Below are positions 2,448-64,000 of a DNA stretch of 64,000 nt, one piece after another. The translations under genes and the position numbers were made by a program. The stretch is taken from the NCBI GenBank assembly GCA_020442475.1, contig JAGRKA010000001.1:62001-126000 (forward strand), given 5' to 3'. A model generated the notes under the pieces. It saw only the letters and a program-made list of their open reading frames with translations. It was not told the origin of the DNA and made no database searches. The DNA comes from Alphaproteobacteria bacterium. GTDB lineage: Bacteria; Pseudomonadota; Alphaproteobacteria; Micavibrionales; Micavibrionaceae. Position 1 is the first letter of the stretch. Each line of letters begins with the position of its first letter.

Positions 2448-3119
2448 TTATTTCACCGGAGCGATATCGAACAGAATTCGATGGGCTGCTGTCCCGCCGG
2501 GGCCAAGCGGGGTTGCCGCCACAAGCCGCACCGGCTTCTTAAAGCGCAGAACAAGGACGGTCCCGCCGTCTTTGCCCGGCTGCGTCCGGTAGCTCCTGAG
2601 AAGGGGATGCGCTGAAAAATCTTTTTGTGATGCTGTTTTCCATACGGCCTCCGGCAAGGTTACGATCAGCACATTCTCATTCTGATCCAGATCATGCCGG
2701 AAAGGCGATACTCCATCCAAATCAAGAACGATCCTCGTTTTTCCGGGATGTTCACCTATACGGACACCTAACACATCCGCCCCGCCACTACCGGATGCTG
2801 TTGCGATATCGCCCAGTGTCTCAGGGCGCTGTTCCATATGCAATGTCCGGGAATGAGGCTTCGCCCGCATCGTCTGTGCATCGGCTTTAAGTGTATAATC
2901 ATGGGGGCTGGAAATTTCCGTCGGATCAACTTGACGACGAGCCCGCATATGCTGTTTGAGCGGGTCGGAATCCTCCTCCGCCTCGACCATCTCCCAAGCC
3001 CCCTTCGACTCGAGAAGCGTTTCCGCACTCTCCGTTTTTGTGCCCTGAAAATCATAAACCGTGCAGGCGCTTAAAAGACCAAGAACGGCAATAGACAAGA
3101 TAGAACGGAATAAAACCAT
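2448..3119 (-). CDS. AMIN-domain lipoprotein
   Basis: A 223-residue predicted lipoprotein. The N terminus is a signal peptide ending in the lipobox LSAC (Cys19). The middle (about residues 35-110) is polar and low in complexity. The C-terminal ~110 residues resemble an AMIN domain: GVRIGEHPGKTRIVLDLDG starts a beta-rich stretch that ends in HRILFDIAP. AMIN domains are known from N-acetylmuramoyl-L-alanine amidases and from PilQ-type secretins, where they bind peptidoglycan. No catalytic domain follows here, so a peptidoglycan-binding accessory role is inferred. It lies alone between icd (same strand, upstream gene start 773 nt away) and a divergently transcribed membrane-protein gene. Confidence 0.75.
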   Translation of the reverse strand: MVLFRSILSIAVLGLLSACTVYDFQGTKTESAETLLESKGAWEMVEAEEDSDPLKQHMRARRQVDPTEISSPHDYTLKADAQTMRAKPHSRTLHMEQRPETLGDIATASGSGGADVLGVRIGEHPGKTRIVLDLDGVSPFRHDLDQNENVLIVTLPEAVWKTASQKDFSAHPLLRSYRTQPGKDGGTVLVLRFKKPVRLVAATPLGPGGTAAHRILFDIAPVK

Positions 3120-60917: not shown

Positions 60918-61802
60918 CTAGTGAACAGGCGCAACATAAATCTGCCCTCCACTATAGATTCTCACACTATTGGTATTTATGCCAGTTTCCTTTTTCAGGG
61001 TTTCATATTCCTGAAAAATTTCGTCAGAGATCGTCGTCAGACGGGCATCAGATATGGTTTTCCAATCCTTTGCCACAAGCTTATCATCGCCGACTCCACG
61101 CAGAATAAGTGTTAACTCTCCAAGCTGCGAAGCCAGCGCAATTTTCTCCGCATCCCGTACATCCAAAGCCAGCGTAACGGTCTTACCGACTTTGATTTCT
61201 TCTTCTTCCGGGCGTTGCGCATGCTGATCAACAGCCAAAACCTTTACATTTTGAAGAATAGTTTCTGTCGCCATTTTATCCAGATTCAGCTCCATCATTT
61301 GCTGAATACGCGGATCATCATCATTCGTACGGAATGTTTCCTTATAGGTCAAAATCACATCTACGAAATCGCCGGGACCAATAAAACCCGCGACCATGCT
61401 TGAGGCCGAAACCTCAATAGCCACGGCGCGCATACCCGGCTCAAGGCTTGCCGCAACGAAATTCCCCTTGGATTGCCCCAGAACAGAGGATTTCATCACC
61501 GGCTCGCCTTTCGAAATATCCCGTGCCAGCCGCCCCTTCAGGGCTTCTTCCGGTTTCTGATCCTCGACCTGAGACAGTGCGCCTGGGAAAACGCTGCTTT
61601 GCGGCCATTCCTGCCAGCGCAAATCACCATCTTGAAGCTCGCGGCCAATACCCAGATCCTTAGCCGCGACAAGAATATTGATTTTTTCTTCAACGGAAAC
61701 TGCGGTTTCTTTTTTCCCGCCCAAAGAAACCTGAACCAGCAGCGCGACCAGAAGAGCCACGGCTACGGCGCCGCCCAGAACAATCAAAACGTTTTTATTC
61801 AT
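60918..61802 (-). CDS. cpaB: Tad pilus assembly protein CpaB/RcpC
   Basis: A 294-residue protein with an N-terminal membrane helix (LIVLGGAVAVALLVALLVQVSL, parts within residues 5-27). A SAF domain follows (INILVAAKDLGIGRELQDGDLRW, about 43-62) and then RDISKGEPVMKSSV and PGMRAVAIEVSASSMVAGFIGPGDFVDVILTY (parts: VAGFIGPGDFVDVILTY, about 137-153). It is a periplasmic partner of the CpaC secretin. It is separated from cpaA by 163 nt in which no gene is visible. Confidence 0.94.
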   Translation of the reverse strand: MNKNVLIVLGGAVAVALLVALLVQVSLGGKKETAVSVEEKINILVAAKDLGIGRELQDGDLRWQEWPQSSVFPGALSQVEDQKPEEALKGRLARDISKGEPVMKSSVLGQSKGNFVAASLEPGMRAVAIEVSASSMVAGFIGPGDFVDVILTYKETFRTNDDDPRIQQMMELNLDKMATETILQNVKVLAVDQHAQRPEEEEIKVGKTVTLALDVRDAEKIALASQLGELTLILRGVGDDKLVAKDWKTISDARLTTISDEIFQEYETLKKETGINTNSVRIYSGGQIYVAPVH

Positions 61803-61965
61803 TGTGAAAACCTCTTGTAAGGCTTTGGAAAAAATATTCGAACACAGAAAACAAGGACTATCTTGAAACCGAAACTCAAAAAATCCCGGTAGAACTTACA
61901 TCCCTAATGATGCCCCCTAATGGTTAAGAAATCATAAAACGGGGCAGGCAGCGTGGAAAAAGACC

Positions 61966-62514
61966 CTATGAAAGTAGAAAAGAGGACAGAACCTCCGGCC
62001 CAAGATACCCTAATTTTATGAAAGATGCCAGCACGCCGCACAGAATCGCGACACCATAGGGAACTTTGCTCTGCCCGGCCTGAACCTGAGCGACCCAGCT
62101 TCCCTCTGCGGGCGCTTTAAAGGGCTTCGTTTTTCGGATTATAAGCGCGCTGAGGCCAAGCAACCCTCCGGCAAGTGTCATATAGAAGAGAAAAACAAAC
62201 AGGCCGCTCAGACCGCTCCACAAGGCGCAAGCCGTCGCAAGTTTTGAATCACCGGCCCCAAGCCCTTTAAGCGCGAACATGATAAGTGTTACGAGGAAAA
62301 CGATAAAGGCGCTCAAAAAATGCGACAGGAGGGACGAAAAAACGTCCTCACGTCCAAACGTCCATAAAAGCCCGTAGCTCACGGCAAAAGCCACGATAAT
62401 GATCAGGCTGTATATATTCGGGATTTTCAGACCGCGCAGATCAGCGAGTGCCGCCAGAAGCGTTGCGCCTAGCACGGTAAAAAGCCCTGTCAGAAATATA
62501 ATGAGCAACAACAT
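61966..62514 (-). CDS. cpaA: Tad prepilin peptidase CpaA/TadV
   Basis: A 182-residue A24B-type membrane peptidase that matures Flp prepilin and pseudopilins. The catalytic aspartates are in LADLRGLKIPN (about residue 24) and LKGLGAGDSKLATA (about 90, GxGD). Six hydrophobic segments are visible. No methylase domain is present, as is usual for TadV. It lies downstream of the flp gene, from which a strong hairpin at 62548-62575 separates it, so pilin and machine may be made in different amounts. Confidence 0.93.
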   Translation of the reverse strand: MLLLIIFLTGLFTVLGATLLAALADLRGLKIPNIYSLIIIVAFAVSYGLLWTFGREDVFSSLLSHFLSAFIVFLVTLIMFALKGLGAGDSKLATACALWSGLSGLFVFLFYMTLAGGLLGLSALIIRKTKPFKAPAEGSWVAQVQAGQSKVPYGVAILCGVLASFIKLGYLGPEVLSSFLLS

Positions 62515-62547
62515 GGAAAAACAGGATAACAGAATCTACGTAAATGG

Positions 62548-62575
62548 AAAGCCCGCCTTTCGAGGGGCGGGCTTT
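62548..62575 (-). terminator. Terminator after the Flp pilin gene
   Basis: AAAGCCCGCC and GGCGGGCTTT form a perfect 10-bp stem with an 8-nt loop, 41 nt after the flp stop codon and 33 nt before the cpaA start. The stem's own TTT followed by CCATTT gives a modest T-run on the minus strand. It would limit read-through into cpaA and so favour excess pilin. Confidence 0.75.
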
Positions 62576-62616
62576 CGGAAACATTGCCGTAAACCGGCAA
62601 AGATCTTTACAAGGGC

Positions 62617-62799
62617 TTAGTTACGTGATGTCAACTGTGTGTCCATCGTCGTAAAGACCGCATTCAGGTCATCCCCGAACGTAAAGACGATCGCAACGAT
62701 TGCAAGGGAAATCCCTGCGGCGATTAAACCGTATTCGATAGCGGTCGCCCCGTCTTCATTCTTCAGATACGCATCTTTTAAAGCAAGCAGTTTCAACAT
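62617..62799 (-). CDS. flp: Flp/Fap-family type IVb pilin (PilA)
   Basis: A 60-residue Flp prepilin, the major subunit of Tad pili. The leader of about 17 residues ends in Gly before ATAIEYGLIAAGISLAIVA, giving the Flp hallmark G-xxxx-E-Y after cleavage. A hydrophobic helix of about 25 residues forms the pilus core. The short tail is FTFGDDLNAVFTTMDTQLTS. An AAAGGAG site lies seven nt before the ATG. A CtrA box lies about 104 nt upstream. It is the only pilin-like gene found in the window. Confidence 0.97.
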   Translation of the reverse strand: MLKLLALKDAYLKNEDGATAIEYGLIAAGISLAIVAIVFTFGDDLNAVFTTMDTQLTSRN

Positions 62800-62902
62800 A
62801 GTTCATCTCCTTTAAGATTTTTTACTTATCCGGTTTTAACCCAATGCCCCAAAACAGCTTTGAAGCTCCCAACCGTTATATGTACAGAATAGCCCGATTT
62901 GC

Positions 62903-62917
62903 TTAAAGGAGAGTTAA
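62903..62917 (-). promoter_or_regulatory. CtrA box in the flp promoter region
   Basis: TTAA-AGGAGAG-TTAA on the + strand (TTAA-CTCTCCT-TTAA on the coding strand) is an exact TTAA-N7-TTAA match, 104 nt before the flp start codon in the only gap (168 nt) upstream of the cluster. pilA is a known direct CtrA target in Caulobacter. Confidence 0.65.
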
Positions 62918-62967
62918 AAATAGATTGTGTTTTATCATTTAGTTTCAGGATACTAGAGCTGTGACTT

Positions 62968-63468
62968 CTAGCGGTGTAGATAAAGGCTTGCTTGCAATTC
63001 GATCTGCCGGGCCAGATCGTTCAAAGCGTTCAGGCGCGTATTTTCTTCAGAAACGCGGGTAGAAAATTCGCTACCCAGAATATTGTAACTGGTGATGCTC
63101 GTCAGATCGTGATTTAAAACAACCTCTCCGCTTGCCCGCTCTATAAGCGTCATATGCGTTGAAAGACGAAGCTGTCCCCGCGTTGCATCGGAGCTTTTCG
63201 TGATGTCCAGATCGGTCAGCGTTTCACGGACGGGGCTGATCTGGAGCATGTAAACCGGATCGGACGGACGGCCATGCCGGTAAAAACGGTCGATCAGCGC
63301 ATTGCGTAAATATTGTCCCTCCCGGTCTGGGATATTGGCAATATCGATCTGGGCCAGAGTGTCTTCTACCCCGGCACGGCTTGCGTTGTGGCTACCATAA
63401 AGAGGCTGAAACCCGCAAGCGGTGAGAAAGAGCGTTGCACTGAGTATGAAAACAGCGAGACGGTTCAT
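62968..63468 (-). CDS. lptE: LPS-assembly lipoprotein LptE
   Basis: A 166-residue outer-membrane lipoprotein that plugs the LptD barrel in LPS export. The lipobox is LTAC (Cys18), followed by the family's GFQPLYG. The body has [41 protein letters not shown] and [21 protein letters not shown] (parts shown) at the end, typical of the alphaproteobacterial type. It overlaps leuS by four bases (ATGA), a leuS-lptE pairing common in proteobacteria. holA, which often comes next, is not there. Confidence 0.93.
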
Positions 63469-64000
63469 CCGGCCACCACATTGACGATCTTGCCGGGCAC
63501 GACGATGACTTTGCGGATTTCTTTGCCTGCTATGGCGTTTTGAACATTGGGCTCGGCCAGTGCCGTATCTTCGGCTGTTTTCTTATCCGCGTCGGCAGGC
63601 AGCGTGATAGAGGCGCGGACTTTGCCGTTGACCTGCACCCCGATCGTAACCGTATCGGCGCTCAAGAGGGACTTGTCATGCTCCGGCCAGTTTTCATCCG
63701 CAAGAAGCGTCTCATGGCCGAGCATTTGCCACAGCTCTTCACCCAGATGGGGCATCATCGGCCCGGATAGCTTGACCAGCGCTTCCAGTCCTTCACGCAA
63801 AGCCCATGCAAGAGATTCGTCATCCCGTTGGTATTCTGCGTTCGCAGAATTCACACGAACGGGATCCATAAGGTCAGCGGCTTTGCCGCTGTCTTTTTCT
63901 GGATCCCCGCCGTCTAAATCCTCGCTGCTGCTCGGATCGCGGGGATGACAATATTGAGAAAGAGCATTTGACAGTTCCCGGATCCGGGCTACGGCCTTGT
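63465..64000 (-). CDS. leuS: Leucyl-tRNA synthetase (partial, C-terminal end only)
   Basis: The frame is open from the right window edge to the stop at 63465; a shorter frame beginning with the Met at 63869 is only part of it. The visible ~178 residues are the anticodon-binding and C-terminal domains: [17 protein letters not shown], then a non-family stretch, then [30 protein letters not shown] and [20 protein letters not shown]. The family normally joins the first and second blocks with a short link; here about 45 residues are inserted, coded by the palindromic element at 63819-63949. No stop or frameshift arises from the insertion. The rest of the gene lies outside the window. Confidence 0.93.
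63819..63949. repeat. 131-bp nested palindromic element inserted in frame in leuS
   Basis: Perfect 8-bp inverted ends GTCATCCC (63819-63826) and GGGATGAC (63942-63949). Inside are CCCGTT (63824-63829) / AACGGG (63858-63863) enclosing a perfect ATTCTGCG-TT-CGCAGAAT hairpin (63833-63850), a central CAGCGGC-TTT-GCCGCTG hairpin (63875-63891) flanked by two GGATCC sites (63862, 63901), and ATCCCCGC (63903-63910) / GCGGGGAT (63939-63946). On the coding strand it is read through without a stop. The style is that of Rickettsia palindromic elements in genes. Confidence 0.8.

Follow-up and report, generated by a model that had tools for sequence, protein, structure and literature searches.

A head-to-head pair of CGTC-tagged REP units lies in frame within leuS of a Micavibrio-like alphaproteobacterium

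The DNA analyzed here (the window) is a stretch of 64,000 nucleotides of contig JAGRKA010000001.1, from an alphaproteobacterium for which a Micavibrio sp. MAG was the closest relative with a name to be found. The minus strand of its right end carries the C-terminal part of leuS (63465–64000), recognized by its open frame, by Pfam matches of the product to Anticodon_1 and tRNA-synt_1 (class I synthetase and anticodon-binding) and by alignment with 109 LeuRS. The frame continues beyond the window as far as contig base 127036. The contig stops at this base and cuts the gene; thus, only the C-terminal part of LeuRS was read, and the N-terminus lies off the contig. Within this part, the open frame spans a 131-bp palindromic element (63819–63949). 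Directly behind leuS, an LptE-like lipoprotein gene was recognized by reading the sequence, in a minus-strand region (60918–63468) that also holds CpaB-like, prepilin peptidase-like and Flp pilin-like genes.

Read on the minus strand, codons 63950–63819 specify 44 additional in-frame residues (CHPRDP...YQRDD). In the alignment with 109 LeuRS, drawn from the order and other Alphaproteobacteria, the affected stretch was found to be 82 residues long here vs. 37–49 elsewhere, and the insert was present in none of the 109 other proteins. Subtraction of the insert, counted as the element plus one base, leaves 38 residues, which is inside the range of the relatives. The preliminary description, made from the window alone, had counted about 45 foreign residues in LeuRS; these are indeed foreign, and their exact number is 44. 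The insertion is also lineage-specific among the aligned proteins, as had been suspected: the residues are not conserved in distant LeuRS, and many other copies of the element exist. The C-terminal part of LeuRS, as well as AlaRS and AroC, which are considered below, each matched one place in the genome, besides weak paralogue and element matches.

The insertion site corresponds to the position between residues 754 and 769 of structure 6q89, a LeuRS of the Neisseria gonorrhoeae type. It belongs to the anticodon-binding domain, where it falls in a loop that connects helices. An AlphaFold model was computed from the 177 LeuRS residues in the window together with 49 relatives, rather than from the full LeuRS. 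In this model, confident helices (residues 2–17 and 61–78) flank the insert, which was predicted with a pLDDT of 47–60 compared with mostly above 85 outside it. The peptide is therefore modeled as a low-confidence loop, and is probably floppy or disordered.

The element proved to be a head-to-head pair of CGTC-tagged REP units, with tags at 63818–63821 and 63950–63947. Unit 1 (63818–63868, plus strand) contains a CGTC tag, an 8-bp stem ATCCCGTT/AACGGGAT (63822–63829 with 63858–63865), a nested loop and a CCA tail. The nested hairpin ATTCTGC/GCAGAAT (63833–63850) is followed by the linker TCACACG. Unit 2 (63900–63950, minus strand) contains a TGTC tag, an 8-bp stem ATCCCCGC/GCGGGGAT (63946–63939 with 63910–63903), a nested imperfect hairpin, the linker TTAGACG and again a CCA tail. 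The outer stems of both units are perfect, and a spacer hairpin, CAGCGGC/GCCGCTG (63875–63891), separates the units. A search of the whole window for this plan with a perfect stem returned two matches, namely both units of the leuS element, compared with 0 or 1 match in each of 20 shuffles. The minimum free energy of the element strand as RNA was calculated to be −61.8 kcal/mol, against a shuffled mean of −36.5 kcal/mol (z −7.4), and the DNA fold gave −33.5 vs. −17.3 for shuffled sequences (z −6.1). A 131-bp palindrome with 8-bp inverted ends (GTCATCCC / GGGATGAC) is thus present, as first described, and folds far beyond chance. However, the ends are parts of the tag and stem of two facing units and not the termini of a single terminal-inverted-repeat element, and of the three internal hairpins described as perfect, those of the left unit and the spacer are so, whereas that of the right unit contains an internal loop.

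Further copies were found throughout the genome, a draft of 2.12 Mb in 131 contigs. Blastn-level searching yielded 33 matches. With a covariance model based on 26 copies, 77 matches were obtained with both strands counted, corresponding to roughly 37 places. Three of these are in recognized genes, in the frames of leuS, alaS and aroC, and about 34 of the 37 are elsewhere. When the covariance model was applied to 37 other genomes of the order, the element was detected in 14, mostly of the same family; four of the genomes (G001, G010, G017 and G021) have many copies, and the others have few or none. One copy in G010 (L247, G010:C5:124840-124993) contains a run of a GCAAA pentamer in the region of the spacer hairpin (AGCAAAGCAAAGC...), a repeat expansion inside the element.

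A general plan of the unit was derived from 66 copies, all of which were read as head-to-head pairs, giving 132 units. The tag is YGTC in 131 of the 132 units (CGTC in 88, TGTC in 43). All eight stem positions are paired in 102 units and at least seven in 124, with A-T as the first pair in 118; the fully paired stems represent 19 different sequences. The tails are CCA (95), CCG (19), CTA (11) and CTG (5). The inner segment, 22–36 nt long, is itself a hairpin, with a mean minimum free energy of −10.9 kcal/mol compared with −4.4 kcal/mol after shuffling. It is followed, before the stem partner, by a 7-nt linker with the consensus TTAAAC[A/G]; many left units have TTGCACG instead. The common plan also includes a spacer hairpin between the two facing units.

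The two other copies in recognized genes are each 125 bp long and lie in alaS (L014:2252-2376) and aroC (L024:2298-2422). AroC is 42 residues longer than most relatives in the corresponding stretch (87 vs. 45), that is, by 126 bp or the element plus one base, and in 5z9a its insertion site maps to a short turn, with residues 145 and 149 on either side. AlaRS has 47 extra residues, of which the element accounts for 42 and its flanks for five, placed behind the catalytic fragment and ahead of the editing part. All three copies have lengths of 3n+2 and share the same codon phase. The encoded peptides are similar, starting with CHP or RHP and ending with GDD or RDD, even though the leuS copy is oriented opposite to those in alaS and aroC. 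Short direct repeats were seen by eye at leuS, alaS and aroC, none of them convincing as a target-site duplication. Open frames span copies at several other loci (L025, 304 aa; L247, 186 aa; L021, L028, L029, L030 and L033); they appear spurious or are short and were not counted. The 759-aa frame at L020 was likewise set aside, since its overlap with the element is confined to the part before the probable start of the frame.

For 28 intergenic copies, with a net length of the element plus one base, about 11% of the choices of orientation and phase were calculated to keep a frame open. Three open frames in three genes would be expected by chance in about 0.15% of cases, which argues for selection to keep the frame and thus for genes that are in use. 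On these sequence statistics, the in-frame copies point to selection for translation. Coding sequence makes up about 90% of the genome of Micavibrio aeruginosavorus (PMC3189940), and yet three of about 37 copies are in recognizable genes, suggesting that most insertions into genes have been lost.

What kind of repeat is this element? CGTC-tagged REPs, as described in the survey by Di Nocera, De Gregorio and Rocco (2013, PMC3733652), have a CGTC or TGTC tag, stems of 8–9 bp starting with A-T and CCA tails. They occur mostly as head-to-head dimers and mostly in Alphaproteobacteria, including Micavibrio aeruginosavorus. Families 1–4 have a loop of 4–5 nt, with other lengths or compositions in a few species. 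The present element shows the YGTC tag, the 8-bp stem starting with A-T, a CCA-like tail, the head-to-head arrangement, a mostly intergenic location and Micavibrio-like alphaproteobacterial hosts. In place of the short loop of families 1–4, it has an inner segment of 22–36 nt. Because every feature examined except the loop agrees, the element is assigned to the CGTC superfamily and placed outside families 1–4, a separation that follows the published description rather than consensus sequences. Additional similarities to the published CGTC REPs are structured spacers, the nesting of some dimers in longer palindromes and intragenic cases that include tRNA synthetases (PMC3733652). Unlike the REPs described there, the units reported here have a nested hairpin as their loop, with a conserved linker on its 3′ side, and the leuS dimer is about 131 bp long. 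In-frame copies add 42–44 residues here, whereas more than half of the intragenic inserts described there, as dimers or groups, add 20–30.

The resemblance to Rickettsia palindromic elements (RPEs) noted at the outset, that of a dispersed palindrome that is open in frame, has a basis in this classification: RPE-6 of Rickettsia conorii is CGTC-1 and RPE-4 is CGTC-4, according to the same survey (PMC3733652). RPE-4 and RPE-6 have ATGAC ends and are found in coding genes, one of them for a synthetase subunit (PheRS beta) (PMC3767692), with the frame retained as in leuS, alaS and aroC. RPE inserts lie in solvent-exposed areas, and different types may occupy one site in orthologues (PMC3767692). 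The present element differs from RPE-4 and RPE-6 in sequence, in its longer units and in a host outside the Rickettsiales, and the relationship rests on the CGTC superfamily that they share (PMC3733652). RPE-1 and the Wolbachia WPE are likewise longer palindromes translated in genes. According to the literature, RPE-1 to RPE-3 are of other origin and the WPE, from the symbiont of B. malayi, is unrelated to the CGTC-4 REPs of Wolbachia. GTAG REPs are also paired hairpin repeats with an unpaired tag that occur inside genes as well, but they have a different tag and known associated RAYT transposases, whereas none is known for CGTC REPs. An RPE-like insertion in a synthetase outside Rickettsia had been considered notable in the preliminary description. 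However, intragenic REPs are already recorded in the 2013 survey, and in X. oryzae, E. litoralis and S. alaskensis they include cases in tRNA synthetases (PMC3733652), and thus the leuS case is not the first; nor is leuS the only gene of its own genome to carry the element.

In a tree of three proteins, G010 is close to the present genome, with a support of 0.06 for the exact pairing and 0.98 for the clade of seven genomes around it. G010 carries the element type at other places (23 matches), and no insert was found in the alignments of its LeuRS, AlaRS and AroC. In the deep-branching G019, alaS (L178, minus strand, about base 2940–3010 of the reverse strand) contains a different, short-looped CGTC pair in frame, GTCATTCCCGCGAAAGCGGGAATC...GATCCCCGCCTTCGCGGGGATGAC, of 68 bp. 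This pair has the same codon phase as the alaS insert of the present genome (G000), and lies within about one residue of its site. Many lineages that branch between the two have no alaS insert, and the bodies of the two elements differ, so that common descent of the inserts was rejected; two independent insertions are the simpler reading, and the alaS inserts of G000 and G019 apparently arose independently. In a study of R. japonica, different RPE types were reported at identical sites of orthologues, with PheRS beta among the genes studied, and the choice between hotspots and one diverged insertion was left undecided (PMC3767692).

These data are best explained, with high confidence, by a non-autonomous selfish REP dimer that is tolerated in LeuRS after insertion in frame. 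The occurrence of in-frame copies in two other essential genes makes the element look like a tolerated genomic parasite and not like a new part of the enzyme. The extended unit would consist of YGTC, an 8-bp stem starting with A-T, a nested hairpin of 22–36 nt, a 7-nt linker, the stem partner and a CC[A/G] or CT[A/G] tail. Dimers of such units would have spread through the Micavibrio-like lineage, chiefly into intergenic DNA, new copies presumably arising by transposition of folded single strands. The leuS copy would have been acquired once this lineage had separated from the closest genus available, and two sister copies would likewise have entered alaS and aroC. Most hits on genes would be harmful and lost, and only the rare in-frame hit in a flexible loop would stay. 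The leuS copy probably survived because the frame was kept, there is no in-frame stop and the site is a surface loop of the anticodon-binding domain. LeuRS would now carry a tolerated, probably disordered peptide of 44 residues, presumably devoid of function.

Mobilization of single-stranded hairpins by a Y1 transposase of the IS200/IS605 or RAYT type, as proposed for GTAG REPs, is compatible with the tolerated selfish dimer, and we regard it as possible, if rather less than likely. It would suit the hairpin units, the short unpaired tag and the lack of a visible target duplication, and the sole Y1 gene of the genome, a broken remnant, is located directly behind the tail of a REP unit, its end sequence recurring behind another unit. 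No intact gene was found in the draft genome, however, and none in G010 despite its element copies; across 38 genomes gene presence does not follow copy number, with the gene in 8 of 37 relatives, and Di Nocera et al. also report no dedicated transposase for CGTC REPs (PMC3733652). The presence of Y1 genes, in this genome and in relatives, thus gave no support for this mover, and IS200 adjoining REPs may mean that REPs are targets only. At both occurrences (G000:C67:17981-18341, with the broken gene, and C37:3368-3402), an IS200-like end GGATGCAGGCAGGGCCCCCCGGGTTTACCCGGGGG directly follows the unit tail GGGATCCAT(T), and from this juxtaposition the REP tail looks like a target for an IS200-like insertion sequence.

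A more specific proposal treats the extended CGTC dimers as a mobile family in its own right, with a mobilizing enzyme that reads the hairpin and a fixed codon phase (YGT CAT ... GAT GAC) upon entry into genes. All four in-frame cases seen, including the alaS pair of the distant genus, have this phase and a length of 3n+2, and we nevertheless consider the proposal improbable. If it were true, certain protein loops would be recurrent landing sites.

An unlikely alternative is a MITE, with the 8-bp inverted repeats as its termini and, as in other miniature inverted-repeat elements, mobilization in trans by a DDE transposase of the cut-and-paste kind. The inverted ends are in keeping with a MITE, and a larger palindrome, TATAGCCATTCC...GGAATGGCTATA, which measures about 210 bp and has the TA-flanked look of a MITE, encloses about a dozen of the intergenic copies. 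However, the 8-bp ends are variable unit stems and not a fixed terminal repeat, and the outer arms are missing from many copies, including those in leuS, alaS and aroC. The adjoining bases, Y to the left and R to the right, are the first base of each REP tag and no one-base duplication; a longer duplication may exist. A larger palindrome around all copies was also considered, and complementarity of the flanks was not above that of permuted flanks in the present genome and weakly above it in others, which indicates that the outer arms belong to a subset of copies. Nearly all of 16 matches to the arm sequence TATAGCCATYCCRGTTAAAAATTGG adjoin a REP dimer. Copies enclosed by such arms, in a palindrome with a total length of about 210 bp, include those at G000:C65:30085-30295, C79:3689-3897, C58:15100-15310, C86:4271-4479 and several more places, and the copies at L013 and L020 lie in unrelated arms. 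The arm-bearing copies may be a composite TA-flanked MITE.

A benefit to the host, with the hairpin serving in mRNA processing or translation pausing or the peptide having a role in the synthetase, is very unlikely. All three hosts are essential genes, two of them for synthetases, and in a far relative the same loop of alaS harbors another CGTC pair; against this, the inserts are not conserved in relatives, the great majority of copies lie outside recognized genes and the inserted peptide was modeled at low confidence. RNA processing or ribosome bypass could also skip the insert or remove it from the mRNA or the protein, so that the enzyme would never contain it. The very stable RNA fold speaks for this reading, but it is very unlikely, since all three genes keep lengths divisible by three with no stop, which would be needless if the segment were removed.

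Overall, the leuS case is a real and well-supported instance of a known phenomenon, with a structural variant of the REP unit, and its in-frame form in the Micavibrio-like lineage is not described in the literature on CGTC REPs and RPEs consulted. With it, three essential enzymes of this lineage join the known hosts of in-frame palindromic insertions, and the CGTC REPs gain a type in which the loop forms a hairpin of its own. Since one AlaRS loop was hit in parallel, the tolerance of protein loops for added sequence can be studied in a natural experiment. The many copies in several genera also make this lineage a promising one in which to seek the mover of CGTC REPs.
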